Positions 16,601 to 62,656 of a stretch of DNA of 64,000 nt are shown here, piece after piece. The position numbers and the translations under genes were made by a program. How positions within the stretch are numbered: the stretch's first letter is position 1; the number at the start of each line of letters is the position of its first letter. Below the pieces are notes generated by a model. It made no database searches and was not told the DNA's origin. It saw only the letters and a program-made list of their open reading frames with translations. This stretch comes from Hermatobates lingyangjiaoensis (taxonomy: Eukaryota; Arthropoda; Insecta; Hemiptera; Hermatobatidae), in assembly GCA_026182355.1 (NCBI GenBank), contig JAPFBL010000234.1, forward strand, positions 124,001 to 188,000, read 5' to 3'.

Positions 16601-19600
16601 TACACAAGATCAAAACAGGTGTTAAATTGTCATATTTAATGTAAATGACCGTAGGGACTCGGGAAAAACTAACCTATCAATCTTTTCTAGCTATTTAAAG
16701 CTAAGTGAGAGGAAAGTTAGCTGTTAATTCTAATCACGACAAAAATAAATATATAAAAAAAAAAGGAAAAAGTTCTAAGCGCTTTTGAGTATACCATCTT
16801 CCCAGCAAATTAGACTCAGGGAGGGAAAAGGGGCGAAAAGGTGTAGAAATGAAAGAATATTTTTGAACGTTGCTACGTTTATGATTCTTTTACTCCATTC
16901 CGATTTAAAGATTAGGTTAGGTTAGTTTGCAATGGTAGTCCCACAAGGGAACATACGTAGGCTGAGGATTGACCCTTTGTGATACACACAATGAAGATTG
17001 ATTCTACAGTGGGAGTCCTGAATTTTGCCTAACTCCTGTGTATTTAGAGTAGGGATCTTTAACGAGTACTTAACATCGTACAGACTTAGGACCGACGGTT
17101 AAAAGTCCTTCTCCGAGGGACGACGTGCACAGATTTATTCACCTCCCGCATGAATAAATCGAGGGCCAAGTGGGGATCCAACCCCGGTCATATTAGTTTA
17201 GAGGCGAGTACGTCAACCACTGAGCTAACCTAGCCCCGATTTACAGAGTAAAAAAAAATTAATGTATACTTACTAGAGTTTTACAGAGTATACTTACTAG
17301 AGTTTTACAGAGTATACTTACTAGAGTTTTACAGAGTATACTTACTAGAGTTTTACAGAGTATACTTACTAGAGTTTTACAGAGTATACTTACTAGAGTT
17401 TTACAGAGTATACTTACTAGAGTTTTACAGAGTATACTTACTAGAGTTTTACAGAGTATACTTACTAGAGTTTTACAGAGTATACTTACTAGAGTTTTAC
17501 AGAGTATACTTACTAGAGTTTTACAGAGTATACTTACTAGAGTTTTACAGAGTATACTTACTAGAGTTTTGGATAGTTCACTAATGACTAGAGTCACTAG
17601 TTCTGACTCTAGAAGCTATGTTTCTTCTAGGCGATCCTATATAGATAGTAAACTGTTATTTATATATTGAATAAATAATTTATTTATTCAGAATATTTTA
17701 AAAACTTTTTTAATAATAATGTTTCCACTATTTACTTTTTTATAAGCAGCAAAAAAATTTTGGTTTTATAAAAAATTTCTCCCCCCATTTTGAGATCAGA
17801 AAGAGCTGTATTGGTAACCGTGGCCAAAAATTTCTTTGACACAGATGGGTTAAGTTATTTCACGTGTTAATGTAAAAGTTTTTAATTTTGATTATTCCAT
17901 AATTTCTTACTTCTGCTTTTGAAAAAGGTTTCAATAAAAAACCAAAACATTGGTTTTTAAGAAGTTAGATTTGAACCTATAAAAGTGACTGAGTTCCGAT
18001 TTATTTTAGCACTATACGTATTTGTATGTAATAAATAAAGAAAATAGCATGGACAGAAGAGCTTTTAAGATAGTTCACCTTTGAATATTTCTACCTTCTT
18101 AGTGGTCGTTCCATTAACTTTTGTTATCATTAAAAGAGTCGAGATCAAGTGTAGTGTACGCCTTTGTGTTTGTATAACCATTTGTCTCTCTTTGTTATGA
18201 AAGTGAATGAAAAACACAGTTTTAAGAGAAGCAAGGTGAATAAGTTTTGACTACTCAGCTGTGCTGTTTGTTTCAGTGGGACGTGACAGGGTGTGGGATG
18301 CTGTACTACATCCTGAGCATTGTAGCCACTCTCCTCGTCATTGTTGCCGTCATCATTGGCATGTTCATTGAAATCAAACTCGTCTACCTTATCGTTTCCT
18401 GCGTCATGGTCATTATCTTTTCAATGGTAAACAACACTTTTTAATAATTTAATAATTGATTCATCAACCTGTTTCTAAACAACCGCAATCACAAAAATCT
18501 GGAGTGGCCTACACTCAACTTTACTATACGTAAATATAATATCATCCTTTTTGGGTATATATTATATAATAACCCCGTGGTTTCCAACCTGTGGGGCGCG
18601 CCCCCCTAAGGGGGCGCGAAGGGTTCCCAGGGGGGGCGCAAGCACTTCATAAATAGAAAAATTACTTAGTTACTAAGTAATTTGTCTAAATACAATTATA
18701 AATTATTTCAAATGCTACTAAGTAACTAAGGAATTAAACAACTATAAAAGATAAAGAGAGAAACGTGCTGTAAATATAAATATTGTAATCATGCAATGAT
18801 TACCAGAAACTGCTTCGTTCGTATGGTTCCCGTTCGGTTCACGTCTCAGTACTCCAGCTTTGGGACTCGGCCGTGTGGCAGCGCCCTGCACTCCGCCCGC
18901 CGCCACATTAGTATGAGGGTGCGGTAGTAAGACGGTAGCTTTGTGACCGTTCTGGACGTACCAAATGCCTCGTAAATAACTGTTAATTGCAAAATTACAA
19001 AGACAAGGAACAGTTCTGAGCGGGTGCGTTTATTTCACTAAAAATTTGAAATATGGAAAGTATTTGATCACTAAAGGCAAAAGGAAAGAAACTGAAAGTG
19101 AGCCTCACTCCAGTAAATGTAATGAAAGTAGCAAACATATGAAAACCAGAAAGTATGACGACAGCTATCTTTCTCTTGGATTTACATCCACAGTTGTTAG
19201 TGGAACGGAGAGACCTCAGTGTGTGTGTTCATACATATGAGTACATAATTATGTATTGTATCATTTTTTATCTCTGACTTGTGCCGACTATGACAGTAAA
19301 TAGCAATATTTAAACCAGAGTGGAGGGGGGGGCGCAGGGAACTTATTATTTAATGAAGGGGGGCGAGAATTCGAAAAGGTTGGAAACCACTGTAATAACC
19401 CATTTAGGTATAATATAAATGTCTAAATGGTAGATGTTTATTATTTTTTCATTCTTGGAGGTAGTACAGATAATGATTGATCCACTTATCAATATACACA
19501 CAAGGGGTTCTTGAGGATTTTGGTCACAAACATACAACTCCTGATTATAAGCCGACGTTTCGCCAAAAGTTGTTTGGCATTTTCAAGGCTAAAAAAACAA

Positions 19601-23841: not shown

Positions 23842-26233
23842 ATGAATGAAGAAGAGTTTAATGATCTTGATTATGAAATAGAACGTATTGTCGAAGAAGA
23901 AGAAAACAATGACATTGGTCCTGGTGAGTTAAAATTTATTCAACTAAATAATTTTGGGCTTTTTTTTTTAATATTGTTTTGTTTGATAATTGTTTTATGT
24001 AGATGAAGCTGTTGAAGTCCCTGATGTTGAAAAAGCTAGAGATGTAAAACCTAAGAAAGTTGTGTTAAATCCTCGTCTAAAATTAGATGATAAGAGGTAA
24101 GAATATCCCTAATATTTTGGTTGCTACAGTGCTGTTGTGTTATAATAGAAACAAAGAAAGATTGTAACGTATTAAACGATTACTTCTCTCAATGATTCAG
24201 TTTATATTAGTACCATAAATATTAGGTTATAGTCGTTTTCTAGCTTGTATTTAGGTAAACAAATGATGCTGCTTTAAAAAAGCCAAGTTATGCCCAGAAA
24301 AGCTCACGGCTTCTATTATTCAATATTCATAAAAAAGGAACATAATTTAATTTAATATTTGATTACTTTTGAATAAATGGTCAATTATTAAGGTTGTGGA
24401 ATACAAGAAAACAAATTTATAGATTGAAAGGACCTCGTGGACTTTCTCAATTAGAACCTCTATTCAAACAAGTGACCCTTAAAGGAAAAGGTTATGAAGT
24501 TCGAGATTTGAATACTGTGATGTCTGTTCTTGAACATTGGTGCCATAGGTTATTCCCAAAAATGACTTTTGATGATTGTTTGGAGAGGATTGAATTTCTT
24601 GGACACAAAAAATCAGTATCTGTAAGTTAATGTACATTTTACTGCTTTACACTTTTGTAATTTTAAAAAAAGCTGCTTTTGAAGTTCTACCATTTTTTTT
24701 AGTCGTACGTTACACTTTTGAGAATGGGTATGAATGATGATGACGTCGTAGCCCCACCCAGATCGCCCTCTCCTGTTAACATTGCTTGACGATGTTGACC
24801 CATTCGATCAGCTGTTGTCGTCTCAAAACAACCAACAGCACAATGTCAGTTTTTATTTAGTAGTGTAATTACAAGTATCTTTGATTTCTTAGTATAATCT
24901 CAATTAATATTTGGAATATATACTCAGTTAGGTTTTTGACTCTGACGAAAACCACTTGTTACGGTTGAAAGATCTGTCTTTTTTCCGTTTTCATTTTGTG
25001 GTTTGATCATTGATTGTTATTGCACGTGTTTGTGTGAAATCTTATTGTATTATATTGTTAAAAGTAGCAGCAGCTTCTGCTCTCACGATTATTGAGCTGC
25101 TGGCCTCGATCTTGCGGGCGATTCTTCTATCTTGCGGTTGGAGCTTCCACATCAATTGTCCAAGGGACATCAATTCATACGACGAGCTTTCGACCATAAT
25201 TACGTTGGTCATCGTCAGGTAAAATTTCCCTTCTGGAAGGATGCTTATATAAACTTCCTTAGTGGGTGTGATTTCTGATTGGTCCAATGAACTTAACTTA
25301 TTGGTCAATCAGAGTACAGGTTTAAGTTTTCGTTCTTATTCCATTTCATGTTAGTCTCTATGTTCCTGTTTATTGGAATGACGAACATTTCATCACCTAG
25401 AGATTAATTGAGAGGTTTCTTTCTTTAATATATAAAGCCTCTAAATATGCAGTTTATCAACATTTTCCTCTCGTTGGATAATACTAGTACCTTGCACAAG
25501 CATTTCTCTGGTTAACTGTACATAGTACTTTTCCTGGGCATGTGGCTTTGGAGCGCCAGCAGCCAAATGAAGGGTTAATCTCCTGGAGAGCTTTGTTGTA
25601 GTCAACCCGATGTACTTTCAGGGCAGGTTCTTACATTCACCTATAGTACAAGTATACTCGTACACCAATATATATAATAAAGTTCAAATATGCAGACAAG
25701 TTACAGAGAGTAAAGAAACACGCTTACTAAATCTAATTTTTGATTTGAACAGTTATCAGGAGAGAAAAGAGAGGGTACCAAGCACTCTGGAGGTTTCATC
25801 AAAGGTGAACCTTGGTGTTACTCTCGGTTTCACCTCTGGGATACTTGGTTTCCCTCTATTCAAAAGTTTGTGTAGACGCTAATCTTTAATAGATCAAATT
25901 AATATTTTAGGCCCCTGTGAATAAATCGAGGGCCTACTAGTCCAGAAGCTAACAAGTAAACAACTGAACTACTTTTTTTTTGCAGTCATTTCTCACAGTT
26001 TCACCAAACCTGTAACAGTCAATATAAACTTAAATTTTCTTCCATTAATTATTAATTTTTTTATTTATTAGAATTTAAGCAATGAACAAAAGGAAAGAAT
26101 GGAAAGGAATCGACTTTTGGCTCAAGAAAAAAGGCTTGCCAACATGAAAGCAAAATATGATAGACTCAACAAACCTGAAAACCTGGATACCAATGTGGAA
26201 TTGTCCTCTGAAGTGCCTGAAATGATTCAATGA
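23842..26233 (+). CDS. TIPIN: TIMELESS-interacting protein (Tipin/Csm3/Swi3 family)
   Basis: Exons: 23842-23923, 24003-24096, 24423-24621, 24703-24844, 26072-26233. About 225 residues are expected, close to the family's usual size. An acidic start is followed by KPKKVVLNPRLKLDD and then the Swi3 domain in exon 3: RLKGPRGL, KGKGYEVRDL, LEHWCHRLFPKMTFDD. Exon 5 is a basic helix (ERMERNRLLAQEKRLANM). TIPIN binds TIMELESS at replication forks and supports checkpoint signalling. Exon 4 is 142 nt although both neighbouring introns are phase 0. The first half reads on from exon 3, while the second half (DDVDPFDQLLSSQNN) is one frame off, with a TGA at 24787-24789 in between. This is either a real lesion or a one-base sequence error. 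An alternative exon 3 acceptor at 24393 would insert ten residues. AATAAA lies at 26386. Confidence 0.88.
24927..25043 (+). repeat. fold-back family E, single arm
   Basis: It is a diverged arm of the family with its core at 24942-24970: CTGACGA, spacer A, AACCA/CGGTT (one mismatch), GAAA. It adjoins the Penelope-like remnant in TIPIN intron 4. Confidence 0.7.
25181..25660 (-). mobile_element. Penelope-like element remnant: GIY-YIG endonuclease end, 3' UTR and hammerhead-like core
   Basis: Minus-strand translation from about 25655 down to 25400 gives KYIGLTTTKLSRRLTLHL, AAGAPK, LTREMLVQGTSIIQ and ENVDKLHI. This fits the C-terminal GIY-YIG endonuclease region of Penelope-like retroelements. 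In-frame stops (one before KYIG, one after LHI) show it is dead, and it is truncated at its 5' side near 25660. Downstream on the same strand, after ~180 bp of UTR-like sequence, lies the core at 25181-25218: CTGACGA, spacer T, stem GACCA/TGGTC, GAAA. It sits in intron 4 of TIPIN. Confidence 0.65.
25700..25990. repeat. repeat fragments in TIPIN intron 4
   Basis: 25700-25790 resembles the fold-back arm at 31860-31905 (family G) in degenerate form. 25858-25910 is repeated at 27229-27287. 25911-25990 resembles the head of the SINE read backwards (ATAAATCGAGGGCC). Confidence 0.5.
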
Positions 26234-31734: not shown

Positions 31735-32706
31735 AAATATAGTTCAATATAGACAAAGAAACATAGAGAAATCAAAAGAACAGACTTACAGACTCTAATT
31801 AAGAGACTGTAATTAACAGAGGGTCTCCAACCGTCTCTGAAGCAGTGCGCTTGGTTTCCCTCTCTTATCTCTCCTGAAGACGGTTCAAACCGAAAATTAG
31901 AGACTGTAAGTGTGTTCTTTTGATTTCTCTATGTTTCTTTGTATATATTGAACTATATATATATATATATATATAGATATATATATCAATGATCAAACCA
32001 CAATAAGAAAATGGGAAAACAAGACTAAGATCTTTCAAACATAACAAGCGGTCTTCGTCAGAGTCAAAAACCCAACTCAGTTGGGTTGAAAGATCTTAGT
32101 CTTGTTTTCCCATTTTCTTATTGTGGTTTGATCATTGATAGTTATTTCACGTGTTTATGTGAAATCTATTTATATATATATACAAAACCAACGAAGATGA
32201 ATCGGGATGTGGTCAGTTTCTTCAACTTTCAATCAAACTCTCATTGCTGACGTTTCGATTTTACTTAAAATCTTTATCAATGACCAGTGTTTGTGTAGTG
32301 TTGACAAGACAGATGAAAGACATCTTTACGCCAACACCGGCCTTTGATAAAGATTTTAAATAAAATCGAAACGTTGGCAATGAGAGTTTGATTGAAAGTT
32401 AAAGAAAATGACCGCATCCCAATTCATCTTTTGTATTTATTTATCCATCACATGGTCGATAATTTATTGCTGTTTATATATATATATATATAAAAAGATT
32501 TCACATAAACACGTGAAACAACAATCAATGATCAAACCACAATAAGAAATGGGAAAACAAGACTAAGATCTTTCAACCGTAACAAGCGGTCTTCGTCAGA
32601 GTCAAAAACCCAACAGTTGGGTTTTTGACTCTGACGAAGACCGCTTGTTACGGTTGAAAGATCTTAGTCTTGTTTTCCCATTTCTTATTGTGGTTTGATC
32701 ATTGAT
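31735..32706. repeat. cluster of four fold-back elements (families G, E, C, E)
   Basis: 31735-31960: family G arms with core at 31874-31895 (CTGAAGA, C, GGTT/AACC, GAAA). 31985-32167: family E with one arm partly deleted. 32182-32437: family C palindrome with cores at 32249-32280 (-) and 32344-32375 (+): TTGATAA, A, GATTTTA/TAAAATC, GAAACGT. 32497-32706: nearly complete family E palindrome with cores at 32571-32599 (-) and 32631-32659 (+). TA-dinucleotide runs separate them. Confidence 0.75.
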
Positions 32707-44700: not shown

Positions 44701-47700
44701 ACCCCTCTATCTCTGTAAATTAAAATAATTCTATAAAATTGCTACAAACAAAGTTTGTCTCCTATTTGTAACAATAATTCATCAGTCTTCGAATGTTGCC
44801 TTTTGAAGGATGGTTGACTGATTAATTGCTGTTTAAAAGAGCTTCTTGTATTGCTCCAGATCTAATCATAGGAAGCATTTCGATCATCCCAAAATTTTAT
44901 TTCTTTCCAGTCTCAAAAACATGTTTCCCGAGGATTCATGATCCCTAACTATAGCTTATTTGTAACTAAACAGTTATTTCATGTAGTATAAAATAAAAAT
45001 AAAAAAAAAACAAATAATAATTTTGTGATGTTAATGTAACGTATATTAAGTTTTAATATTAGCATTGTAGTCGATACTGAAAATGTATATAATTTTGAAA
45101 ATAAACAGTTTGTATGTATATATGATCAAACAATAATAAAAAATGGGAAAACAAGACTAAGATCTTTCAACCGTAACAAGCGGTTTTCGTCAGAGACAAA
45201 AACCCAACTGTAACGGTTGATACCCAACAGTTAATACCCAAAAGACCGCTTGTTACGGTTGAAAGATCTTAGTCTTGTTTTCCCATTTCTTATTGTGTTT
45301 TGATCATTGATTGTTATTTAACGTGTTTATGTGAATATATGTATATATTGTGTTGAACTGAATTGCCTTAATCAAACATACCTTTCTTTTGAGCAGTTTT
45401 TCATATTTTCAATACAAATATATTTATACAAATATATCATATTTTCAGTTCAACACAATTTGTATAAAAGAAGGTCTGCTCCCTATTTATGTTCAACACA
45501 ATTTGTATAAAAGGTCTGCTCCCTATTTATACTAATATATATATATCAGCCCAAAAACGAAGAAAAGCAACGCAGAGAAAGAGACACACTTACAAACTCA
45601 AATTTTCGAAAATTTGAGTTTTAAGTGTGTCTCTTTCTCTGTGTGTTGCTTTTCTTCGTTTTTGAGCTGATTTGCGTCAAGTTTGGATCGTTTTTTTCGA
45701 ATTTTGAGTGATATATATATATAATATTATCAACGTCTAAACCACAATAAGAAATGTGAAAGACGTAGATTTTTATTTCACATATTTATTGTGAAATTTG
45801 TTTTATATGTATAGCATGAGTATGATTATATTTTGTGATAGTGCATTCTGACCATGTGTTTCATGCTGTTAAAATTATGATTGAGAAAACAATTATTGTT
45901 CTTTTTTTGTCAAAGACCCAGGTAAAAATGCATGTATTTTTAATTTTTCCCTCGTAAAATCATTAAAATAGTGCTTAAAAAGATCTCCGAAGTTCAGTTT
46001 ACCACGGTGCCAGCAACTATATAACATTATTAGGGAATTTAAGCAGTTGTATGCATTGAAATTTTTAGAGATATAATGTTGACTACTTATTAAGTGAAGA
46101 CTGTAGTGTATTTTAAAGAAAAAGCATGATAACCTGAATGATATCACAAAAATAAAGACCTCTATAAAATTTTAAATACTTCAGACTTCTTTGAATTTGA
46201 ACAACAATTTTATTTTTCTTCCCAAAATCAACATATCAAATTTTTTAAGAATTTTGAGAAATATTTTAAGATTCCTCTAACTGTGAAGAGAGTGTTACAA
46301 AATTTGGTACATTTTCGAAAGTCAAAACTAGTGAATATATTGACAAAATGATTCAAGTTTTATTAGAGTCAGTCAGTGATTTTGATTATTCAGTCGCGTG
46401 AAAATTTCACTGCAGACCGCTCCAGATGTTTTTTTAAACTGTAATTATAAAGGTTTTTATTTTTGTAATTTTTTTTTTTTTAGAAAACGTAGACGAAATT
46501 GGTTGGCATTACAAATGAGATCTGAAGAAATGACAAAGCATAAAAAACCAGAAGAGGAATTAAATAGGGTAGAAAAAGTGCTTCAAAAATATAGAGCTAG
46601 GTACAGTAACTGTCCTCGACCTCTCCCTTGGGGTAAGTTTGGTTTGGTGTATTTATTATTTAGGAAGTTGTTTTGAAATTGCTTTTAAATAATAAAATTA
46701 CCTCAAAGCTTTATATAAAAATTATTTTAGTATTTTACACACATTTGTATTTTTTTAGATCAATTTCTATGTTATAATTTCTATTTCTATGTTAAAATTA
46801 GTCATAGTTGTAAATTCCATATTGATTAGTTTGTTGTTACCGGTTGCTTATTTATCATTTTTCGGTAGTTGTCATTATATAAAACTAAATTATTGCGACT
46901 GTAAGAGGTGGTTTTCTTTGTTAACCTTGTGAGGATATTTGAAGTATAGTGTTAAATTTTTTTTATTTTATTATTACAAATTTTGGAATATATTTATAAC
47001 ATATGGCGTAATGGAATGAATTTAAGCCCAACGAATGTACTTAACCTTGTGATCTTGAAGGAATAGGTTGTTTATGTTATGAGAAGGTCTTCTCGTTAAT
47101 ATAAGCCGTTTTCTTTTTTAATGTGTTTGATAGGATTATGATGAAGTATTTGGATTGGGAAAGTTGTTTTGAATTTCACCTACCTTAATTGAAACACCTA
47201 ATGTAATATATTAATATTAGATATAACAAAATTATCACTTAGTCACTTTAGTTGTAAGTTTTGACAGGGTTGTACTACTTTAATACTATTCTACCATTTA
47301 ATTAACGTTTGCAGTAAAAAAAAAGGTAATTCACGTAATTTGGGTTAACATTTTCAATTAAATTAATCAATTAATGTAATGTAACATTGAATTAATAAAA
47401 ATATATTAGGTATTTTAATTGGAGTGATAGTAACAATTACCTATCGGATGGTTTGGAAAACTTTGGTAAAGTCCAAAATTTCTAAACCATAGCCCCAAAG
47501 GGAGGTTTAAGCATAGTTTAATCTTTCGTGGTTTTTTTTATAGAGTTTTATTCATTCTATTCTGTTCTAGAAGTGAAAAGTGTGGATTATTACTTATTTG
47601 ATATCAATTTTAGTTATGAACAAGTCACATCACCGGATTGGTAAGGTGATGTTACTACTAGTAAGTAACTTACTACTTACTATTTACTAGTAAGTCACCT

Positions 47701-50700
47701 TAGTAGTAAGGTGACTTACTACTTCTAAATTATACATCAGGAGTAGTAAATTTTACGTTTCTAATTTTGAGGAAATCTTTAAACAATTTGTTATATAATA
47801 TTGGTTAATGGTCATCAGCTACCCGTTAATATAGTTACTGTAATAAACTTGATTATGCAAAATTTAGGACTGACTATAGGAATCTACTCGGTAATGGAGA
47901 TTCTTTTTATCTAAAATGATCAATTTTTCTTTATTTTGATTTTTCTTTTTTGTTTCATTTTTGTAATGGCCAATTATCAAATTAGGTACACTTTCAGCTC
48001 CTGGAACAGCACAGGAGTCGTCAGTATGTATTGTTATATATAACAATAATATTTGATATTATATTTTATAATATTATAGTATATAATATGGTTATATATA
48101 CATGCATAATGTTAGTACCACCAAGGTTATTATGATTTATATTATTAATATGGGAAACCGTCGTACCTCCAAGATCGTCTTACGAGGTACAACGGTTTCC
48201 CATATTAATAATGTAAATTGTTATATATATTTCTTGTCTCTTCTTTTCAATATTTTCTTTTATCTTGTTACTTTTTTACATAATCAAATTTCTTAAACAG
48301 TAAACTAAAGTTAGGTTGAACTGCTTTTCTTATATCCAACTTTTTTTTTTGTATTTTAGTGCTCTTTTGTAAAATACTGAAGTTTTTTTATTGTTTTCTT
48401 GTTGCTTTCCCAAGTCATTTTTTTTTTGTTGCATTGCAGTCCCCACGCAGAAGATGGCTCGCCTGCTGACGACGAGTGCCAGTGCTTGTCGTAAGCTGTG
48501 GCAGAAAGCCGAGCTCAGTGGAGTGGACGTGAGGAGCTTGGAGTTGAGACAGGCGCAGATTGAACTTCTGTCCGATGTCCACCGACGGTGGCATATCCAA
48601 CCTGCCTTCAGGTCCATTCTCAATACGATTATTATTAGAAAAATGCCATTAGAATCCTGTAATAACATTCAGTTTGAACTGAAGTTCCCCTTATCCTAAT
48701 TGATTTTATCTTATTTTATATAAATTAACAGTTAAGGAAGTCGACTAGGAAGACATCAATCAACTCAGAAATAAAAAGGCATAAAGAAATTCAGAATAAA
48801 TAAAATCTTTTTACATCAGTTCTTTTAAAATATCTTAAGACCTAATAATTTTTAAATTACATATATAAAACTCTATCGTCTAAAACACTTATAACAGTAT
48901 TTATGACTAGATATATTTAAAACTACTGTTACCTTTTTTGGTTACAGTTCTACCAAATTTGCATGTAGGACAGTTTTTGTTGGCATAGAATTCACTTGAA
49001 TAAAGCATTCAATTTTTTAATTGAAGGACTACATTTTAATACACTTCTATATTACTTGATAGATGAGTTTCTGTAATGTTTTCTTAAGAATAGTTACACG
49101 AAATATTTTATAAATTAACAGTTGTTTAAATTTCAGTGTGGAATTCATCGCCTATTATTTAGATAGGAATGGAAGGATGAACAATTTGAGGAAACAGTTA
49201 ACTGAATTGATAGAAGAAAATGACAAATTGTTGTCGGATCAAACAGAAATCCAGGAGAAGAGAGACTTGGTATGAAAATCAATGGTTTATTGTTCATTCC
49301 TGATTATTATAATAGAAAAAAAGGGAATTTATATCGTTATATGTTTTTGTCCTTGTCAGTTCATCTGTAGATAGAGAAAAGTCAGTATTTTCGACATTAA
49401 TTGTACAAATTAATAAAATAGGGGTCAGAGTAGTTGCCTAGTGGCTTGCGTGCTTGCCTCTGGAATTGTAGATCGGAGGTTCAATATCCATCCTGTGCCT
49501 AAATTTATTTACGAAGGAAGTAAAAAAAAAACATCAACCAACCGAGCAGAACTCTTCTTCTTGTTCTCCTAATGACGACGAGATCAAAATATTGAAATGA
49601 GTTGTGTTGTTTCTACTTCTTCTTTCCTTAAAATCATTTGATAACTTGTCTCCTAACGGACGCTTTCATGTTTTAAATTATAAAATTAAAAATGTACTGT
49701 TTTTGCTCGAATTTTTAGAAGAATTTTTTTTTTCTAGGCACTGAAAAATAACAATGATGAAATGGATGCAAAGAAGGATCTTTTGTCTAAAATTGAGCCT
49801 TATCATGGTGTAGTGAAAACGTTGTGCCCCAATTCAAAACTACCTGAACTGGGATTAATGGGACGTCCAATCCTCTATCCGCCTAGTCATCCTTTAGGTA
49901 GTAAAGTCAACAACTGTTACTGTTATGATGTTTGGAGAATTTATCAAAGTAGAGTATTCGTTTATTTGTCAAATATTCATTTATCAAAATATCAAATATA
50001 TTGATATAGCTTCTCGACCACTGATTTTTCAAATCAGTGGCATATAATCAAATCATACAAACGTCGGTATATAATCAGGAGTTGAATTTTTATTACCAAA
50101 ATCCTCAAGAACCCTTTCTGTGAACTATAAAATATATTTTATAAATAATTTTTGTTTTTCTTATAAATATATTTTTATAAAATATAAAAATATAAATATA
50201 TTCATTTATCAAAAAAAATAAAAAAAACAATTGAGCATTTATTTTTTTCAGGAAATTCGCCAGTTGTGACTGCATTGAAGACAGGGTATGCGCTTAAAAA
50301 GACAGAACCTTCGGAAAATGGTCCTGAAAAGACAGGTAATCCTTTTTCATATTATTAAAAACTATATTTTGTTTCAATCCAATAATTCCAGTAATAATTA
50401 AAGGATGGTTGGATTGGATACCCACTTTTTTGGGGGGTTATACAGATTTGGGATCCGTATGGCTGACCATAGAAATTCTGACTTAACTCTCTCTCTCTCT
50501 CTCGATCTGCGGGAGTTTAAAAGTAAAAGCCTTCTGTTTCAAACCAATAACTTTGGCATAACTTAGAGGGAAATAAGAGGGTTATGTTTTCTATCTCGCT
50601 AGAGTGCTTGTCACTCACATACTGTGTTGAGAACTTTGTGTCGAAAGATGGTGCCTATTATAGGATTTCCAATGAAAATCAATGGTTTTCATCTCATATT

Positions 50701-53700
50701 AATTTCCAAAAAAAATATTGTTCGGAAATTAATTACAAGTATTAAAAAATAGGGAGTTACTTTTCGGTCACCTCTACTTGTATGCAGTGAATACAATATT
50801 TTACCCCTAGCAATGCTGTCATTAAATAAATGCACATTGTTTGTACTAAGTCATTAGAGGTTAGTAAACAGCATATTATTATAATAATCCGTCATACCTC
50901 GTGAGTCAGTGATGTAGCCGCAAGACCGTTTCGCATGTTGTGCGTCTTCAAATGGGACTTCTTCTTTTTCTCACTGAAGATGCACAAAGTGCTAAACCGG
51001 TCAGGTGGCTACTACACCGATTCAAATGGTATAACGGATTTTTATAATAATATCGTGTTAGTATTGTTTAACCGTTGTTGGATTTCGCAGGACGGGTTAC
51101 TTAATTGATTTTTTTCAGGTCGAAAGTAAATTTTTTTAAGGATGCCATTAAGTGGCATCCTTAAATCGATATGATGAACCTTTGTATAACATATATACCT
51201 TTCAAACTTGTGCAAGTAGTTCTTGCTGAAAATTTTCAATAGGGAAATAAAATAATCTATATTTATTAATTACTTATTAAGTAATTACTTAATATGTAAT
51301 TATTTATTTTTACTTATTATATTAGTCTTATTTATTACTTGCAGAATTCAAGCATGTAAAACTATATGTTGGTAATTTACTGCTAACTGACAAAATTTAA
51401 AAAAATATATATTTCTCTTTAAATCTACAACTTGTCGAAATCACGTAAACATGGCAGAAAATTACAGCTTAAGCGAGATTAAAGTTTAGTGAAAATTTTT
51501 ATTAATTATGTAGAGTATTTTGGAGAGACGTTTTCCTGATCAGATCTATTCGATTTTGTGTTAGGAAGTCATATACTCGTATCAGGTGCTTGTTCTATAT
51601 ATTATTATTTACTTTTAATTTATGGTTTGTTTTATTCCTTCTTTCAGATGACAGTTCAGTGAATGTTAACAACTCGTGTGGTATTTGCCGAAGCAACACT
51701 GACCAACACCTTCTTGCCAAGTGTGACACATGTAAGAAACACTACCATCTTGGCTGTCTCAGTCCTCCCCTTCTTCGGATGCCCAAGAAAACTAAACAAA
51801 TGGGATGGTTTGTTTATTTCATCTTAATATTTTTATAATTTACAATAGTAAATCGTCGTCTTAGATTTTACTTTTTTAATCTATCCGGTTTTTAATTTTA
51901 TACATTTTTATGGATGCGGTTGTTTTACGGATGTTTTCTGATGTGTTAGAAAGCCAAATTAATAAAAAAAAAAATTTACAAATCAGGATCAAAGTAGATA
52001 AACAACTTTAGTGACTCAAAAACTTTAAGAAAAGCTATGGGGTCATCGTCAGATTGAAAACTTACATAAAATGCATTAAGCAATTCTCAACTCCACGTTA
52101 GTTACTTAATCAGCTTTATAACATCTACTTATAAAGTTGAGTATTGCTTTATGTAATTTTTGGCCTGAGGGTGGCCACATAGTTTACTGAAATATATAGT
52201 TTTTCTTAAAGTTTTTGAGGGGGTCAGGGAAACCAAATGGTTTGCATGCTGGTCTCTGGACTGGTTGATCCGGGGTTCGTTACTCACTCTGGTCTCCATT
52301 TATTCACGCGGGAAGGGAAAAAAGAGCACTTCGTTCTTTAGAGAGGGCATTAAGCCGTCCGTCCCAAGCCTGTATGATGTCAGGCACTCGTTAAATATAA
52401 CTACTCCAAATACGCTGTAGTTAGTCAAAATTTAGGACTCCCAGTGTAATATGTTCATTATGTTATATCACAAAGGAACGACCAATGTAACCTAACCTAA
52501 AGTTCTTGAGGAACAAAAGTAATTTATTCACCTTCCTTTCATTTGAACGAATTGGTGGGTTGGCTGCCTATATTTCTTATAATAAACCATTATAATATAT
52601 AACTCATAAACACACTAAATTAAGCAACGTATACCTACTGTTGACATAACACAGTAAGTTACTCTGTGTTTACTTTGAATAACAATAAGAATATTTACCT
52701 TTGTTTTTATCAAAACACAAGTGTCTAAAACCTAGAACATGGGTGCTCAATACGTCGATCGCAGTATCGCAGTAGTGGTAGATCGCATAAACTTTGAAAA
52801 AAAAAAGTTGCCTGTTCGACGTGCACATGATAGTAATGACGCCAGGGTAACAGTGAGCCTGTCATCACTCCATCACTTATTGATGTACAGGGTAGAGATG
52901 GGCATATCCAGTACTGACGCGTATCTAATACGTATTCGATACTCAGAGCCCGTATTCGATACTTCGAGTACGACTACATTCGAATACATACACTCAATCG
53001 GCTATCCAGTATCTTGCGTATCGAGTCCTTTTTCCTGATCACTCGACACTCTCATTATTTATCCCATCACATACATATATTAACTTACAGCTTTCTACAA
53101 TGTAAAATTATTGTAATCCAGAAATTTACTTTTAACATCGTTGGTAAAAAAATAATATATTACTACTTAGGTACTGGCATACTTATATTACATAACTTAA
53201 TATTAATAACATACGCATTTATGGGTCGGTAGATCCTTTTGACTCGGTCATTTTATAAGTAGCTCGCACACTGAAAAAGTGGTAGCACCCCTGACCTAGA
53301 ACAACAATTATGTGTCATATTTCTGTAAGATTTTTAACAAAAATGAATGATTATATTTAAAACCATGTAAAAAGAAGTAATCAAAATTAACTTAATAAAT
53401 TGATAATTGAGAAAGTTAGTGATAAGAGCTAGACTGCATTGTCTAATAATCGTTCAAAATTCGGTAAAATATTTTATTATGCTATTCTCAAGGAATTTTC
53501 TAAATTAAGTCATAGCTCTGTATATAATCCATGTTCTAGATCGTGTCTTATAATAGCTATTAATTTTAAAACCCAGTTACAAAATAATTGTAAAAAAAAG
53601 TAAAAAAAAATATATTTTTTTTAATAAATGTATGATTCTATTTATATAGCATTTTTCAGTCTCCAAAATTTGCGCTTTACTGTTTTATATTACTGTTAAT

Positions 53701-56700
53701 AAATTTATAAGGTTCCCAATGAAGAATCAACTTGATACAGTTGTACAAAGAACTGGCTGGGTGTGTTTTCCTCTTGGTAACAGGCCTATCTGCTCTGAAG
53801 CTAACTGTTCATGATGTCTAGATAATTATTAACTTTCCTTTTGTATAACATAGCCAAATATTTCATTTTTTGTTTTTGTTTATACTCTAGGCAATGTTCG
53901 GAATGTGACAATGACTCAGATAGTTCAGTTTGTGACAACGTTGATCCTGAAGCGCCTAGAAAGCTACGGCGAAGAGACAGCTTAGAGGATGGCGGACCAC
54001 TAACACCCACCAATATTAAGGTAATAATAATTTATAGTTATTTTGTGTTGTTTTTAGTTCATGTTTGAAAGAAAACATTGTAAACTGCTAGCCAACCAAT
54101 TAATTGAATGATCTTGGGAAATATTAGAGAAGGGATGGCGAACCACTGACCCACGTGGTTATATATCCATTTTGCATTGTTTCGTGCACAAATAAACTGT
54201 TATCTTTTTCTGCTTTATCAAGTGGTTTTTGTTAACCAGTGGCAACTTGTTCGCAAAATTGACAAAATTTAGCATTTATAGTGTTAGATTTAGAACATTA
54301 AAATGAAATCTAAACGCACTAGTATTTTTTTATTTGACTATGAAAATATTTTGTAACGCTGCTTGTCCGTTATTAGCTAAATTTTTTGACGTCAACCAGA
54401 AATTACAGAATTTTGAATCGAAATCATTATCTACTGAAGCCATTGCTGAAAACATTATTCTTGCAAAATGGAATTCTTTACTATCATCTTTTAAATGAAT
54501 GAAAAATTAGAACTAGCTCTCCTGATGTTTGGTTCTTCATATCTATATGAGTCCTTGTTTTCACATGTGTTTTTCATAAAATCAAGTACCAGAAATCGTC
54601 TGGGGGCCAATGTGAGTTCTGCATATATCACTGAAAACAATAATCTATAAACCTCGGATTCTAATGCTATCAGATAAGATGCAGTATCAAGTTTCTCATT
54701 GATAGGGGAACTTTCAAAGGTTGTGACCCAGTTTTCTTTATTTTTTTTATATAAGATATATAATTGACCCAGGAGGTAAAAAAGATCGTCATCCCTGTAC
54801 TAGAGTGAAAACATGATACGTCAATTGAACATTTAAGGAGTACAGAATTTGTTTCTCCAGGATAATGCCCTCACTCTGAGAGACCTTAATTATTATGTGA
54901 TCCTTTACAAATTTCAAGTATTTTCTTATAATTAGAATAGGGGAAGAAACACTAGTTTTCACACAATAGTATCTTGTGTGAACACACTAAGTCTTTTGTG
55001 TGGAGAGTTAGTGTTTCTTCCCCAGTTTTAATCATGAGTAAATACCACACAATAAATACTTGCATAGCTCAGAGTTTCAGTTATTCTATTACAATGTGTG
55101 TTATACCTGTAACATTGAAAATGATAAAAGATAAAATGATGAAAAATCAAAAGATTATTTAAAATTAGAATCCGTAGTTGATAATAACTCATATTTAGAA
55201 ATTATGGACGAAGTAGAAAGAAAAGGAATAGTTTGTGAACAAAACTGTTCATGTGGAGAGTATGATAATTTTAAGTTATGCCTCAGTTAATTTAAGTTTA
55301 TGTTGGTCTCATTCTTTTTTTTATTATTTTAGTGCCTTCCATGAGCGCTTTCCTTGTTAGCTTAGTATGATGGACTTACTCTCTGTGGTTTCTAGGTGCT
55401 CCAGATATCAAGTGCATAGTGAATCTCTGAGGCGTACTTTGTAGTGATGTCTCAGATTTTTGATTCTTTTTGATGATGTTCGAGACCATGTTTTATTTTT
55501 TACTTTTAGCCCCAATAGGTCGTTTGTAAAGGATATAATTGTAATTGTAAATTGAATGTGTATTGTTCCACATATTTATAATTTTTATATTTCATATATC
55601 ATAGATTATTTATATAATTTTCTATATGCTGTTGAATTCGTCATAGATTCATTAATGTGGTTTAAGCTTCATGGGAATGGAATATTTCCTTTGTTAAAGG
55701 TTTGGTGTCTACTTATGTTCCAAATATTCTCTAAAATTATTTGAAACCATCGAGCGGACAAAAAAAGCATGAAGCAAGACAGTTTAAATTGAATATACTT
55801 TTATTTGTACTAATTGTTGTGATATAAACAACCTTTATTCTCGTAGTGAATTTGATTATTTCTTGTTTTTGTTACTAGTGTGAAAAGAGTGATAATGATG
55901 CTTCATTACAAGAAAATCCTCTTCTTGCAAGTGGAGATGCTACAACAGTCTTAGGTAGTATACTATTGTAATCAAATTTAAAGCCATTTCGGCTAATAGA
56001 TGAAAAAATTATATCGACCAACGAATATATCCGCGCACTATAGTGCACGTCGTAACTAGCAGTTCCAGACCAGAGGCCTTCTACTGCTTGATTACTGTGC
56101 TACTTATAACTTGGAATATCAGTAATTCATGTCAGATATTAAGTTCGTCTGTACAGTAATGGTCTCGTATTCGCACATAATTTATGTAGATATTTTTTGT
56201 CTTTTTAATGGAACTACCCAATTAATAATTTATTTTTAATTTTTAACTTGTCCTGTGTTTTAGTAAATTTGCAAAACAATTTATCTTAAACATTTTAATT
56301 GCCAATATCTAAGATGTGCTTAGAATGTAGGTTACTATACTTAAGTATCTAGCCACAATATGAATGGGAAAACGAGACTAAGATCTCTTTCAACCGTAAC
56401 AAGCGGTCTTCGTCAGAGTCAAAAACCCAACTGAGTTACCCCTTGTTACGGTTGAAAGATCTTAGTCTCGTTTTCCCGTTATTGATTGTTATTTCACGTG
56501 TTTATGTGAAATCGTTTTATTAAGTATCTAGAAGAGTCGATAGCAGTGCTTCCCTTTCTCTTATTAAAAATGTATTTATGTTTGTATATGCTGCTACAGA
56601 TGATGTTAATTGTGAAATAATTTACCTTAACTATTGAATGAATGTTATGTAAATTGTGAAAAATATTAGACTGAAATATGGTGAAATAGTTTGCTGAAAT

Positions 56701-59700
56701 ATACAGCCAAGTAAAAATGATAAAATAAAGTGTGTCTTCAAATTGTTTTTTTCATATAATTGTATCTTTTTTTTACATACAAAAGATTTGTGAAAATGTA
56801 CAGAATGAAACGAATTTTGAATATTTGAATAAGTAACTTAAATATGTTCACTTAGCAGCATAATTCAAAATTACACAATTTTTAGTTGTTTTTGTTTAAT
56901 TTTTTAATCTAATTTGTGATTAAGTTCTTATTTTATTAGGAGTATTTGAGAGTTTTAGCAAATGTTTGATATATCCATCTGTGTGTGAAGGGTCGTAAAT
57001 TATTTAATTTTATTAATTTTATTCTTTCTTTTTGTAATTTATATTTATGTGATTTTAGTGAATTGTAAGGATAAATAAAATTAGAAAAATCTCAAGTTTC
57101 AAACTTTAGAACGGAATATAAATAGTAACAAATCTTAACAGAGAAAATTGTTTTTGTATGGACCAGAGGTTGGTTAGGTTTTTGAACTGAAGTACCACTA
57201 CACTCTTATATTTGATTTTTGATACAGGGAAATAGTTATTTATGCAAAATTCTTGTAGTTTATTTAAAAACTAATTTCGAATGGTTTCTTCCATTTGATA
57301 GTTCTTTGTAGTCATTGTTGCTGATCCTAGTTGTGTTTAGGTGCTCAAGTTGGTGTTGCTGGTCGAACAGGAAAGAAGCGAAGACGAGAGAAACATCACA
57401 GGTACTCTCCTGAACCAGGCAACATGAACAGGTCACACAAGCACAAACACAAGAGGCGCAAATCTGTCACTAAACCAGAAGAGCACAGACAGAGTCTTAA
57501 AATCTGTGTAAGTAAAAAATACTGCACAAATAAATGTCACTGTTTAGAAATTATTGTCTTATGATTATAAAAACGAGTATTGGCAAATTTCTTAAAAAAT
57601 TATATTATTGAATACAATTTTTTTTATTTAGCATCTTGGTTTGTTTAGATACAGGGTACAAAACTAAATATATTCGTACAGTAAATTATTATATTTATTA
57701 AGAAGTAGGGGAGATCATTTGTGGTGTCTGACCAATCAATGTCTGATCAATAGTAGCCTACTTGACATTGGATTTGAAAATTTTATGTTCGATTTTGGGT
57801 TATTACCCCAGATTTCGCCAGATGTGGTACGTCCATGGTACGGCTAAAGGACACCACATAAAAAAAACTTCAGTGTGATCTCCTTTCTTCCATGTCATGG
57901 TCGAAAGGCTGAAACTACGTGGCAAGAAATCAAAACAGGTAAACACAAAAGACGTAAAGCCCATAACTTTAGGCTTAAAAAGAACTGGTATAGATATTTT
58001 GAAATGTATGTCTGTATCAGTAGATGATATATGCCTTATTTGCAACGTGGCATTTATGTATTAAACTATCATAAAGATATGTCAGTGAATGTGAGGATAA
58101 AGCTATTTTAAAAAATTACTTTTAAATGATTGTAAATTTATTCAGGAAGTCCATTCTTCACTTTTTCATTATAGCAGAAAGGTTTCCTTTGGGTTATGTT
58201 GAAGGCAGGATATTGCTCCATTTTGTTAGTATTTATTTTTCAAAAAATAATAATGCAATTGACGAACTGTTTTGTTTTATCATAAGTGTATACATAACAT
58301 GTATACTTATGTAAGTGTACATAAGTGTATAACCATTAATCTTTTTAACCGGAAACAAACCTCTCAAAATGTTGGTCAAAATTATCACCAAAAGAATTGT
58401 TCTAAAGCATCAGTTTTATGGAGCCATTATTTCAATTAACCCGGTTAGGTTAGGTTGGTGTAACAGTCCATCGATAGAACACACATAGGTCCGATCATTG
58501 GTCCTTTGTGATACCACACAATGAGTATTTTACATTAGGAGTCCTAAATTTTGCCATACTGAAACATATTTAGAGTAGGGAACTTTAACCATTACCTGAC
58601 ATCGTATAGGCTCGGGGCCGACGGCTTAACGCCCTCTGCTAATGATAATGTGATTAGATTTTTTTCACCTTCCTCATAAATCAATGGAGAGCAAGGAGTG
58701 GGCATTGAACCCCGGATCTAACGTTGCCTCTAGACTATCCTGGCACCATTATGCTAGGTCTGAAATTATACTGGTTGAACATTGCGCGTTATTTTATTTT
58801 TCAACCATCATTAAAATAATGTATGTTTTTTTTCTTTTCCTTTCTGAATGTTGCGAGAAAAAAAAAGTCACTGAACAGCGTTCTTTTGCTGAAAGGTGTA
58901 GGAAACCTTTCTTGAAGTAAAGGCCATTTTAGGACCGTCCACTTCCCCAAAAAGCCACCACGGATAAACAAATTATTTTATAATAGTTATGTTTAAAATC
59001 CTTGAATCCATCATTATATTCCTCGATCAGTGCTTCTACAACTGTTACGCATCTTTCAAAAGATTCAGCAGTCTCCTCTTTGCATTCGTTTATTACCTCT
59101 GTTAACTTAGGAAAACATTTTCTAAAAGCTTAATCTTTTCAAGAAATGATTGAGAAATAGTCATCTACCTAAATGTCAGAATTTTTTTCTTTATTACCGG
59201 AATTGTAATTCTTTATATTGTGAAAAATTTTTCCCAACAAAACTGCGGAAGGCTACAGATTCCCGACGGCTGGCCTAACCTATACTTTCATTCTTCTTTA
59301 TCGACCGCAATGATTTGCAGTTCAAATCGATTCCTGGTCTTGGAGGAGGGAGTTCTTATGTGGCCACTCCAAGCAGTGATTTGTCTCCGGATATGGCCAA
59401 GTTAGCTGAGCAGCCAGTTCTTCCAGTGGCCGTCAAACAAGAGGATTCACAGCAAATCATCTGCATCCTCTGTAACTTACCTGGAACAAATTCAAACCTT
59501 GTCAGGTATAACGATTTTTACTTTTAAAACAAATTTATTTGTCTTTCGTCATATCTGTAAATGATCAAACCACAATAAGAAATGGGAAAACAAGACTAAG
59601 ATCTTTCAACCGTAACAAGCGGTCTTCGTCAGAGTCAATAACCCAACTGACTCTGACGAAGACCGCTTGTTACGGTTGAAAGATCTTAGTCTTGTTTTCC

Positions 59701-61817
59701 CATTTCTTATTGTGGTTTGATCATTGATTGTTATTTCACGTGTTTATGTGAAATCTTTTTATATCTGTAAATATTGAAATCATATTCCATAATTTATGAT
59801 TGTATAATTATTATATATAATAATTTACATAATTATACTTATGTTTTTATTTATTTCATCAGTTCGAAACATGTGTTGAAATAATATATTTATTTATAAT
59901 AAAGTATATTAAAGTATAAGTATAAAAGTTTAAATAAATATAATTTATAGTTTAATTAAAGTATAAAGTTTATTAAGTATAATAAAGTAAAGTAAAGTAT
60001 TATATTTATTTTATTAAAGTAAATGGCAGCTTCCGCATTCACGACCTTAATGCTTGTATAACTAGTTATATACCTACCCCTGGGTAGTTATACCTATCTA
60101 TTTTAGCGCAACAGTTTATAGTAAAGCTACAAAACCAGGACCGTGCCCCAATGGGAATAGTGAGTGTTCGGGTCAATACAGAAGGATCATAATAAATGCC
60201 TGCAGAAAGAGACTTTAGTCAATGCACTGAGTGGAGAGCACTCCATATTTATATATAAGATCGTCACAGCCTTTCTCCTGATCAGACCGTATGTAACTTC
60301 AGACCACCCGAGGTATGGCCCAGTTAGTAAGAGGTTTTAGCTTCATTGCGATTACCAGGAGTGCGATTTGCTTCAAGCACAGCAGTGATTGAACCATCAA
60401 TAATTGGTGCGAGGGGAAGTCAGTCGTTGGTAATGAAACCAATGGACAACCTACCTATGTTGACCGAATTAACATTCCATTTCCTGCTATCCAATTTAAG
60501 GCATGACACTACTCACACTAAGGCATTAAAAGAGAAGGAAATGGGAGATTGGGAAAAGTTAACAATAGCCAAGAAGAAAGCTCTCTACAGAGCTAGCTTT
60601 TTTCAGACTTTGGAGAAAGTTGATGATCCAACGGGCAAATGGAAACACAATGTAGGAATTGCCCTTATCATTTGCAGTTCTGCTATTTGGATATTCATGT
60701 TCATTAAGCACTTTATTTACCCTAAAGAACTTAACTGAAATATTCACAATTGAGAGACAGCAAGCCTAGTTGAAGAGAATGATTAATCTCGCTATTGGTC
60801 CGATCGAAGTAATTTCATCCAAATGGGACCACGAGAAGAATGACTGGAAGAAGTAAAAATTGTCCTCCTGTTGTAATCTATATCCTGTTGTATTGCTATG
60901 TTTTAAAATTTGTTCGGTATTATACTAATGCTTTTGGGTAATTTCTCAAAAGATAATTTATGTGAAAGAGAAACATAAAATAGAATCCACAAATAGTAAA
61001 TTGATAGACAAATAAAGTTACATATATAGAGCACTTAGAAATCCGAAAAAAGAACTAATCTTTGTAAATTGGTCGTTATTTAAATATATATATATATAAA
61101 CTAGAATTTAAAAAGAACATAGAAAGAAATCACTGAACTCACTACTATATTTCGATGTCCTCGATACCAATTATGTATATATATATATGATGTAATTTTT
61201 TTTGAGGTTTGAGGTCCAATGATTAAAACTATTCCTTTTGCCGACGTTTCGACATATATTTATGTCATCTTCAGGGCTACAACATGATTGTTTTACAATT
61301 AGCACTACTATTACTACTATTTGGTAAGTTATTACATTTTAATATGTTCGGTAACAAAGAGGAATTTATTGATAAATCAGTTATTACGACTATGGATTAT
61401 TTTGTTATACATAACAATTTTGTAAAACAAAATAATCCATAGTCGTAATAACTGATTTATCAATAAATTCCTCTTTGTTACCGAACATATTAAAATGTAA
61501 TAAATTACCAAATAGTAGTAATAGTAGTGCTAATTGTAAAACAATCATGTTGTAGCCCTGAAGATGACATAAATATATGTCGAAACGTCGGCAAAAGGAC
61601 TAGTTTTAATCATTGGACCTCAAACCTAAAAAAAAATTACATCATATAAATATTGGGTCAAGAAAACAAATCATGATGTATATATACGAGTATATATAAA
61701 AAGATTTCACATAAACACGTGAAACAACAATCAATGATCAAACCACAATAAGAAATGGGAAAACAAGACTAAGATCTTTCAACCGTAACAAGCGGTCTTC
61801 GTCAGAGTCAAAAACCC

Positions 61818-61887
<70 letters not shown>

Positions 61888-62066: not shown

Positions 62067-62656
62067 GTAAGTTTTTACTTTCATTATATTCATTTTTTTT
62101 ACTAATACTTAAAGCTAAATCAGTGGTTCCCGACCTCCGTGAAGTGTTATGGTATTGTTTGGTGACCGCGTTACAGTTTCCAAGGTATACATGCAAATTG
62201 TCAGTACCACAGAGGTTATTGAACATCATATTATAAAAGTCCGTCTTACCTCGTGAATCGGTGTTGTGGCGTTCCAACCTGTTTGGAATATTGTACATTT
62301 TCAAGTGGGACTGGTCATTCTCGAATGATCCTGGATAAAAGGAGATTCTAAGACTAATAATTCGATAAAAAAAAAAAGGAAAAAAAGATGTATTATAAAA
62401 CTAATAAATATGATAAAAGTCGAGTGCATATACTACTTTAAACGATTACTCCGAACTTTGTCTTAACACCACCTCTAAACACCTTAAAAAAACTTTATAA
62501 TTTCCCTGAAGATCACTGGAAGCCACTCAAAATGACTGGATTCACCCTAATAAATATTCTCCAACGTTCGGATGAAGGAAAGGAGATAATTATTCAGAAA
62601 CCTCAAAAAACTGGTGAAAAAAATGACTTCAGCAAAATATGGTCAATTGTTCAACG

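Follow-up and report, generated by a model that had tools for sequence, protein, structure and literature searches.

Several families of fold-back repeats in one stretch of the Hermatobates lingyangjiaoensis genome carry a short motif that resembles the core of hammerhead ribozymes. This stretch, hereafter called the window, comprises 64,000 bases of a 910-Mb genome. Its repeats raise the question of whether they form a single structural class, what kind of mobile element gave rise to them, and how two inverted arms came to be joined in one insertion. We assign a probability of roughly 0.8 to the reading that these repeats represent pseudo-LTR (pLTR) copies from several Penelope-like retroelement families, mostly non-autonomous and placed head to head, each with a minimal type I hammerhead motif.

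The origin of inverted, one-tailed Penelope insertions is unsettled, and this genome holds very many short insertions that allow tail, junction, and ribozyme to be examined jointly. Minimal hammerheads of Penelope-like elements were reportedly treated by Cervera and de la Pena in 2014 and by Lunse et al. in 2017. Their role is termed a mystery in PMC7761336.

A shared motif in the window and in the genome

Both strands of the window were scanned with a relaxed pattern consisting of YTGANRA, 0 to 2 bases, a stem of 5 to 8 pairs, a loop, and GAAA. The scan returned 16 sites in which one base separates YUGANRA from stem II, and no site with a 0- or 2-base spacer was found on either strand. By comparison, 60 dinucleotide shuffles of the window gave a mean of 0.13 one-spacer matches and a maximum of 1. 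One of the 16 sites, at 3582 (covariance model E 0.046), is an isolated match attainable by chance and was not taken as a family member.

The original prediction held that families A to E share the order YTGANRA, spacer, stem, and GAAA. All of the sites on which it was based read as described and had been placed correctly to within one base; 61243, 19554, 32249, 25181, 32571, and 59604 are left ends of minus-strand copies. Likewise, GAAA is followed by CGTC, as had been noted, in all four copies of families A and B and in one copy of C; the other C copy has CGTT. The boxes CUGANGA and GAAA are exact in families A, D, and E and occur as a U3-A8 variant in families B and C, and the cores of families F and G are partly decayed.

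A covariance model built from 11 window copies recovered 17 sites in the window at E < 1e-6 (the training copies and other E copies) and one more E arm at E 1.5e-5. Family F had been proposed as a member, and its left arm was indeed found by this model (E 2.5e-5), which was not trained on it. The weaker membership proposed for family G has a mixed outcome: the inverted arms and inspection speak for it, but the covariance model missed this family. The G fold-back has a flush 7-bp repeat and no tail, and it looks symmetric. A partial third G-like copy is present at 62229-62303 (minus). Additional model matches at 17913 (E 0.0067), 44114, and 9528 were not taken as members, and the scan found no hammerhead motif in the small fold-backs at 45545-45671 and 48128-48225.

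The fold-back arms measure 236 nt in family A (97% complementary), 133 nt in family B (97%), 104 nt in family C (88%), and up to 91 nt in family E (100%). Family E, which had been listed among the fold-backs, consists of five head-to-head pairs and three solo copies in the window. Family D had been counted among the fold-backs as well; it is instead a single motif adjoining a Penelope-type endonuclease remnant (Table 1).

Table 1. Hammerhead-like repeat families and associated coding remnants in the 64,000-base window
Feature	Position	Strand	Remarks
Family A head-to-head pair, target duplications ATGTATATATA	61173-61686		duplications 61173-61183 and 61676-61686
Family A tail, right arm only	61654-61675
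Family A motif, left arm, C3-G8, stem III ACGU	61238-61280	-	scan and model
Family A motif, right arm	61552-61594	+	scan and model
Family B head-to-head pair, target duplications ACTTATCAATAT	19484-19870		duplications 19484-19495 and 19859-19870
Family B tail, right arm only	about 19826-19858
Family B motif, U3-A8	19549-19592	-	model
Family B motif, U3-A8	19727-19770	+	model
Second family B copy, partial	50059-50124	+	86% over 66 nt; counted as partial pair
Family C head-to-head pair	32194-32430		inverted arms
Family C motif, U3-A8, CGTC	32244-32286	-	model
Family C motif, U3-A8, CGTT	32338-32380	+	model
Family D motif, C3-G8, stem III AGCU, 3' of endonuclease remnant	25179-25224	-	scan and model
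Penelope-type GIY-YIG endonuclease remnant, 58 aa	25444-25617	-	65% identity over 57 residues to P0001
Likely continuation of endonuclease remnant, other frame	25400-25453	-	by eye
56-codon open frame from ATG inside D motif to E insertion	25045-25212	-
Family E pair, short left, tailed right	31985-32173
Family E pair, tailed left, short right	32490-32706
Family E pair, target duplications TATGTATATAT	45113-45348
Family E pair, target duplications TTAAGTATCTAG	56341-56531
Family E pair, target duplications ATATCTGTAAAT	59551-59772
Family E solo copy, tailed	11266-11391	+
Family E solo copy, tailed, inside family D element	24924-25046	+
Family E solo copy, tailed, adjoining family A element	61696-61821	-
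Family F fold-back	9022-9284		left-arm motif 9066-9108 (minus), right arm decayed
Family G fold-back	50867-51059		right arm with ACCGGU at the stem III place and TAAA for GAAA

Beyond the window, we sampled 227 kb of the same genome, made up of 200 kb taken in regular steps along contig C1 (loci L387 to L406) and of loci chosen around GAAACGTC sites (L367 to L386, with L367 to L377 chosen for closely spaced sites). The sequence GAAACGTC occurs 38,280 times genome-wide, compared to 21,495 times for the reversed pattern. The 200-kb regular sample contains 38 motifs, compared to 1.8 in shuffles (five shuffles).

A search with hammerhead models had been suggested as a check on the original prediction. 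The Rfam hammerhead families gave no match over the window at E up to 1 and no match to the family A right-arm motif at E up to 10, an absence to be expected if the motifs lack stem III. The E core was also sought in viral contigs, without a match. Pattern scans of viral and prokaryote contigs gave a stem II of at least 5 bp in 9 of 120, 1 of 120, and 2 of 118 among the matches listed, and these listed matches are mostly chance.

Compensatory changes in stem II

As in hammerhead ribozymes, stem II lies between the two boxes and changes in a compensatory manner, which had been claimed from a handful of copies and is now confirmed by alignment. In families A to E, 98.1% of the stem II and 3-8 cells are paired, whereas shuffles gave 65%, with none of 500 as high, and slid-partner controls gave 15 to 47%. 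All six pairs are changed on both sides, which 23 of 500 shuffles also reach, and the observed number of pair types is reached by 326 of 500. All 25 stem II pairs of these families hold. Among 120 ways of re-pairing the arms between families, only the true one scores 25, and the runner-up scores 24.

The genome matches, which extend to E 0.1 and were fitted to the model and are therefore biased toward it, have 94.2% of cells paired in the 200-kb regular sample (27 distinct matches) and 92.0% in the chosen loci (35 distinct matches). For both alignments, none of 500 shuffles was as high in either paired cells or covariation score. In one of the two genome-match alignments, neither the pairs changed on both sides (391 of 500 as high) nor the further pair types (155 of 500 as high) were above shuffles.

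The 3-8 pair and a constant extra base

Positions 3 and 8 are C-G in families A, D, and E and U-A in families B and C. When any letters were allowed at both positions, the window and the 227 kb of genome together yielded 76 one-spacer matches, of which shuffles indicate that about two to three are expected by chance. These divide into CG (48), UA (14), AA (11), GA (1), UU (1), and CU (1), and neither CA nor UG is present among the 76. Families B and C carry a U3-A8 exchange rather than plain decayed cores. The exchange itself is already known, because PMC3088659 reports that U3-A8 replaces C3-G8 in nature and is active in vitro. The compensatory exchange found here is alike, but it occurs in Penelope-type motifs of one genome, alongside C-G families. 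Ten of the 11 A3-A8 cores belong to C-like genomic copies, and this subfamily amplified although its core is apparently inactive.

The spacer after A9 is one base in 76 of 78 relaxed matches, two bases in the other 2, and zero in none. A constant extra base had been predicted, and the count supports this (16 of 16 sites in the window scan). The base had also been called unlike the textbook core, but it is already known: both the viroid CChMVd and PAc, a Poseidon element of Anolis, provide precedents. The plus-strand CChMVd hammerhead has an unpaired A after A9 (PMC3705267), similar to the unpaired base in our motifs. However, the viroid has a single A, whereas the base in nearly all motifs of this genome is A, U, or rarely C.

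Palindromes in place of stem III

Beginning with the last A of GAAA (A15.1), 34 of 42 distinct motifs read as a palindrome, where 42 is a number of distinct motif sequences and not of independent families. Seven palindromes occur: ACGU, AGCU, AUAU, AGAUCU, ACCGGU, ACGCGU, and ACAUGU. At other offsets the count is 0 to 8 of 42, except for 14 at one offset on, where the 6-mers nest. In 33 of the palindromic motifs, the cleavage position is also occupied by A, C, or U. Neither these palindromes nor the joint exchange at positions 3 and 8 had been part of the original prediction.

Because such a palindrome has no loop, a single RNA is unable to close stem III, whereas two RNAs are able to do so. 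An A15.1-U16.1 stem III would form in the same 34 distinct motifs solely as a palindrome between two RNAs. These sequences look as expected of dimer-cleaving ribozymes, and the occurrence of seven different self-complementary sequences within a single genome lends strong covariation support to the dimer principle. They also amount to ready-made compensatory mutants for the dimer model. The principle is already known, since PMC6466107 and PMC7761336 describe palindromes and dimer cleavage for Penelope hammerheads in tandem arrangement. According to PMC6466107, dimer cleavage in eukaryotes also demands tandem motifs. Our pairs are head to head and not tandem, so dimer cleavage would take two transcripts. 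By eye, stem I has 3 to 4 bp in family A, the B left arm, and family E, and it is mismatched or weak in the B right arm, C, and D.

A coding link to Penelope elements

The comparison of the endonuclease remnant beside family D with P0001 gives E 4e-23 (a single comparison). P0001 has weak matches to RVT_1 (1.4e-5) and GIY-YIG (0.0025), both below the curated cut-offs, and the remnant itself matches Pfam GIY-YIG at E 0.034, also below the cut-off. A database search with the 58-aa remnant returned no match; its full-length relatives fall outside the lengths covered by that search. The D motif follows on the same strand, about 220 bases after the remnant and about 180 after its likely continuation. 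An E copy (24924-25046) inserted into the D remnant, and D is therefore older than this copy.

We also considered the 56-codon frame in the D motif as the start of a host gene, with a splice-like GTGAGA after codon 42, and this candidate was overturned by the endonuclease remnant and by a relative at L397. The frame matches no Pfam family and one PDB chain unconvincingly (E 0.063).

A similar arrangement exists at L390, where a reverse transcriptase (RT)-type frame and a C-like motif (model E 0.026) lie on one strand, with the motif about 290 nt downstream. This frame is 57% identical to P0001 and itself matches no Pfam family. L400 has a further frame with a GIY-YIG match of 0.001, below the curated cut-off. 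Listings of open frames contain no RT or GIY-YIG coding frame beside A, B, or E. The RT and GIY-YIG domains of Penelope elements are represented through the D endonuclease remnant and the C-like L390 frame. The link to Penelope follows from the remnant beside D and from the pseudo-LTR anatomy described below. Together with stem II covariation, these findings support the earlier proposal of one hammerhead-type, Penelope-derived class.

Head-to-head insertions with a single tail

Among 21 pairs of neighboring motifs less than 700 bp apart in the window and the regular sample, 14 are head to head, 5 have the same direction (3 and 2), and 2 are tail to tail. Metazoan retrozymes, in which direct repeats bearing a canonical type I hammerhead stand in tandem, do not match this predominance of head-to-head pairs.

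A tail of 20 to 40 nt is present on one end only in 26 of 27 pairs (3 of 3 for A, 4 of 4 for B, with the fourth B pair partial, and 19 of 20 for E). This one-tailed rule is near-strict in the A, B, and E pairs. No E pair of 20 has two tails, and one (L381, 145-232) is without any. Halves interrupted by insertions (A in L371, B in L377, and E in L392) fit the same pattern and were left out of the count. The E tail can form a small hairpin, the B tail a weak hairpin, and the A tail none.

Family E provides 20 pairs in about 291 kb (of which 27 kb are chosen loci). Its unit is 126 nt long and has a fixed 5' end, at which 25 of 67 pieces start within the first three bases. Two 3' ends are used, a short one near position 85 to 98 and a long one with the tail. 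The short end of one pair (L391, 5628) lies far inside, at unit position 52, and the long end of another pair stops at 116. The three solo copies of the window are tailed, and solo pieces elsewhere end at either site. In the pair at 31985-32173, the right-arm motif is missing between GGTT repeats and both ends are kept, as if reverse transcription had skipped the hairpin.

The flanks of window pairs share at least 11 nt in 7 of 10 cases, compared to 1.2% of 3000 random places; without two E pairs that lie in TA runs, the count is 5 of 8. The A pair, the B pair, and three E pairs have AT-rich target duplications of 11 to 12 bp. A short duplication in an AT-rich target and often inverted pLTRs, one of which may bear a tail of 30 to 40 nt, are features of Penelope insertions, and families A, B, and E have the published Penelope pseudo-LTR anatomy.

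Inverted repeats, flanking duplications, and high copy number are also what a MITE or foldback DNA transposon would produce, and the terminal repeats might then resemble a hammerhead by chance. We consider this very improbable. The symmetric terminal inverted repeats of such transposons are not seen in A, B, or E, where a tail sets the two ends apart in 26 of 27 pairs. The centre junctions vary between pairs, solo copies exist, and a Penelope-type endonuclease remnant adjoins D.

Evidence bearing on cleavage

The coordinated occurrence of core, spacer, and palindrome speaks for the predicted cleavage, insofar as this can be judged on sequence grounds. Stem II formed in all six single motifs that were folded (z-scores of -2.0 to +0.6). 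The minimum-energy fold has an open core and stem I as drawn for family A only, and in a fold-back transcript of family A the motif is enclosed within a long hairpin (-360 kcal/mol). The 5' ends of E pieces coincide with the predicted cut in 1 of 67 cases and lie within two bases of it in 4 of 67. About 3 ends near the cut would be expected under even truncation, and this agreement means that there is no cleavage footprint at the insertion ends. Conservation of the E motif is only slightly above that of the remainder of the unit (8/384 vs 29/671, p 0.08).

Perhaps the motif has lost its cleavage activity, or it has no part in transposition at all, and it persists as the opening of the Penelope frame or as a protein-binding hairpin whose resemblance to a ribozyme is inherited. 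Several observations agree with this: A3-A8 copies amplify, the whole motif is kept in insertions (the E pieces that begin at the fixed 5' end), and ribozyme mutants of PAc leave insertion unaffected (PMC11167929). In the same source, the PAc ribozyme requires the PAc protein in vitro and is dispensable for insertion. However, the C-G/U-A exchange without the two single mismatches, the one-base spacer, and the seven palindromes are features that a dimer able to cleave requires and a hairpin does not, and family E has no ATG at the frame-start place. We therefore regard a non-cleaving motif as a real possibility that is on balance doubtful, and we favor a motif that would cleave as a dimer.

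Formation of the fold-backs

In the mechanism that we propose, each pLTR carries a Y3-R8 core, one base past A9, stem II, the GAAA box, and, as stem III, no more than a palindrome of 4 or 6 nt. Two RNAs would pair through the palindrome and cleave as a dimer after UH. The reverse transcriptase and endonuclease of an element would cut AT-rich DNA, with each end receiving cDNA of one source RNA. If one cDNA started on the far side of the 3' tail and the other short of it, the two 5' ends would meet centrally, and this meeting would yield a fold-back, a single tail, and an 11-12-bp duplication.

The centre junctions vary between pairs, and the pairs were therefore not copied as whole units. Divergence between arms averages 5.9% within pairs and 6.9% between pairs, a small difference that 14 of 2000 re-pairings also attain. 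In 4 of 19 pairs, both arms have a variant that is absent from every other arm. Because of these shared variants and the greater closeness of arms within pairs, it seems that either a single source RNA gave rise to both arms or one arm was made from the other. We give an even chance to the first version, in which two starts on one source RNA made the fold-backs. It fits PAc, which cuts and extends both strands and whose tail lies between two RT start sites (PMC11167929).

The second version is a snap-back, in which one target-primed cDNA folds its 3' end, primes the second arm, and stops before the tail. PMC3846280 proposes a snap-back on an antisense template, with the fold-back as one copied molecule, and reports palindromes at inverted junctions. 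The private variants shared by the arms of a pair would be explained, and 11 of 19 E pairs, among them truncated ones such as 57/60 and 48/54, have arm starts that lie within 13 bases. However, 8 of 19 E pairs have starts separated by more than 20 bases (31985 by internal deletion), and in the 31985 pair only one arm has lost the motif. A copied arm would also be expected to continue through the tail into the target, unless it was always stopped. We judge the snap-back plausible, if somewhat short of an even chance.

With two starts on one source RNA as the preferred version, we tentatively extend the model. Each fold-back would be made fresh, with its ends primed beyond and before the tail, even though the tails of the families are unrelated. 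The two active sites of a Penelope dimer would use two different RNA start sites in obligate alternation, and the palindromes would have been selected for two-RNA action. We lean somewhat against this extension in its full form. If it is true, the "optional" tail and the inverted pLTRs have a common explanation in this alternation.

Relation to known systems

The closest relatives are the minimal hammerheads of Penelope-like elements, which lie in pLTRs and have a type I core that lacks a proper helix III, as here (PMC7761336, PMC6155905, and PMC6466107). Compared to these motifs as described in citing papers, ours are head to head and solo instead of tandem, have 6-nt palindromes in several families, and include U3-A8 cores in B, C, and further families.

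According to PMC11167929, the PAc frame starts with an ATG at stem II, with C3 and G8 before it and a cut 26 bp downstream. Family A matches this arrangement, as a direct count gives 26 nt from its ATG to the predicted cut. PAc also has an AT-rich target in common with our families, in addition to a tail between two start sites and the cutting and extension of both strands. PAc in vitro has no strand difference in start site, whereas nearly all insertions here are one-tailed.

Penelope families of Adineta vaga have an inverted pLTR that is 37 bp shorter, a 31-bp tail on one inverted pLTR, 8-10-bp target duplications, and head-to-head order (PMC3846280), akin to our pairs. In contrast, the pairs described here have no visible coding part, and family E alone reaches the density given above.

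Minimal Penelope hammerheads, dimer cleavage, U3-A8 cores, the extra base, and one-tailed inverted pseudo-LTRs have thus already been published. Within the literature searched, the fresh parts are the list of copies for this genome, the set of seven palindromes, and the near-strict one-tailed rule.

Additional observations

In seven viral contigs (L076 at 4410-4482, L086, L092, L102, L103, L108, and L113), a three-stem hammerhead with an extra U after A9 can be drawn by eye. Stems I and II covary among these contigs, and the minimum-energy fold of L076 differs from the drawn one. With Rfam, L102 and L108 have no match, and the one type II match of L076 is sub-threshold and lies at a different place. 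Related phage records (Faecalibacterium and Flavonifractor; 78-79% over part) annotate a hypothetical protein at this motif.

The window also contains tandem arrays at 17264-17570 (a perfect 24-nt unit, 12.8 copies) and 6544-7167 (a 58-nt unit, 10.8 copies). A 98-nt inverted repeat at 1942-2349 has a few CCTAA units at its centre, similar to the insect telomere repeat. These units are a weak sign of an arthropod host, and a protein search with COX4 for the placement of the host gave no match. The frame at 12195-13226 (minus) encodes an LTR-type retroelement integrase, with Integrase_H2C2 above the cut-off and rve just below it. Elsewhere in the host genome, a long frame at L406 (1415-2764) is possibly a Helitron remnant, and its start resembles a PIF1-type helicase.
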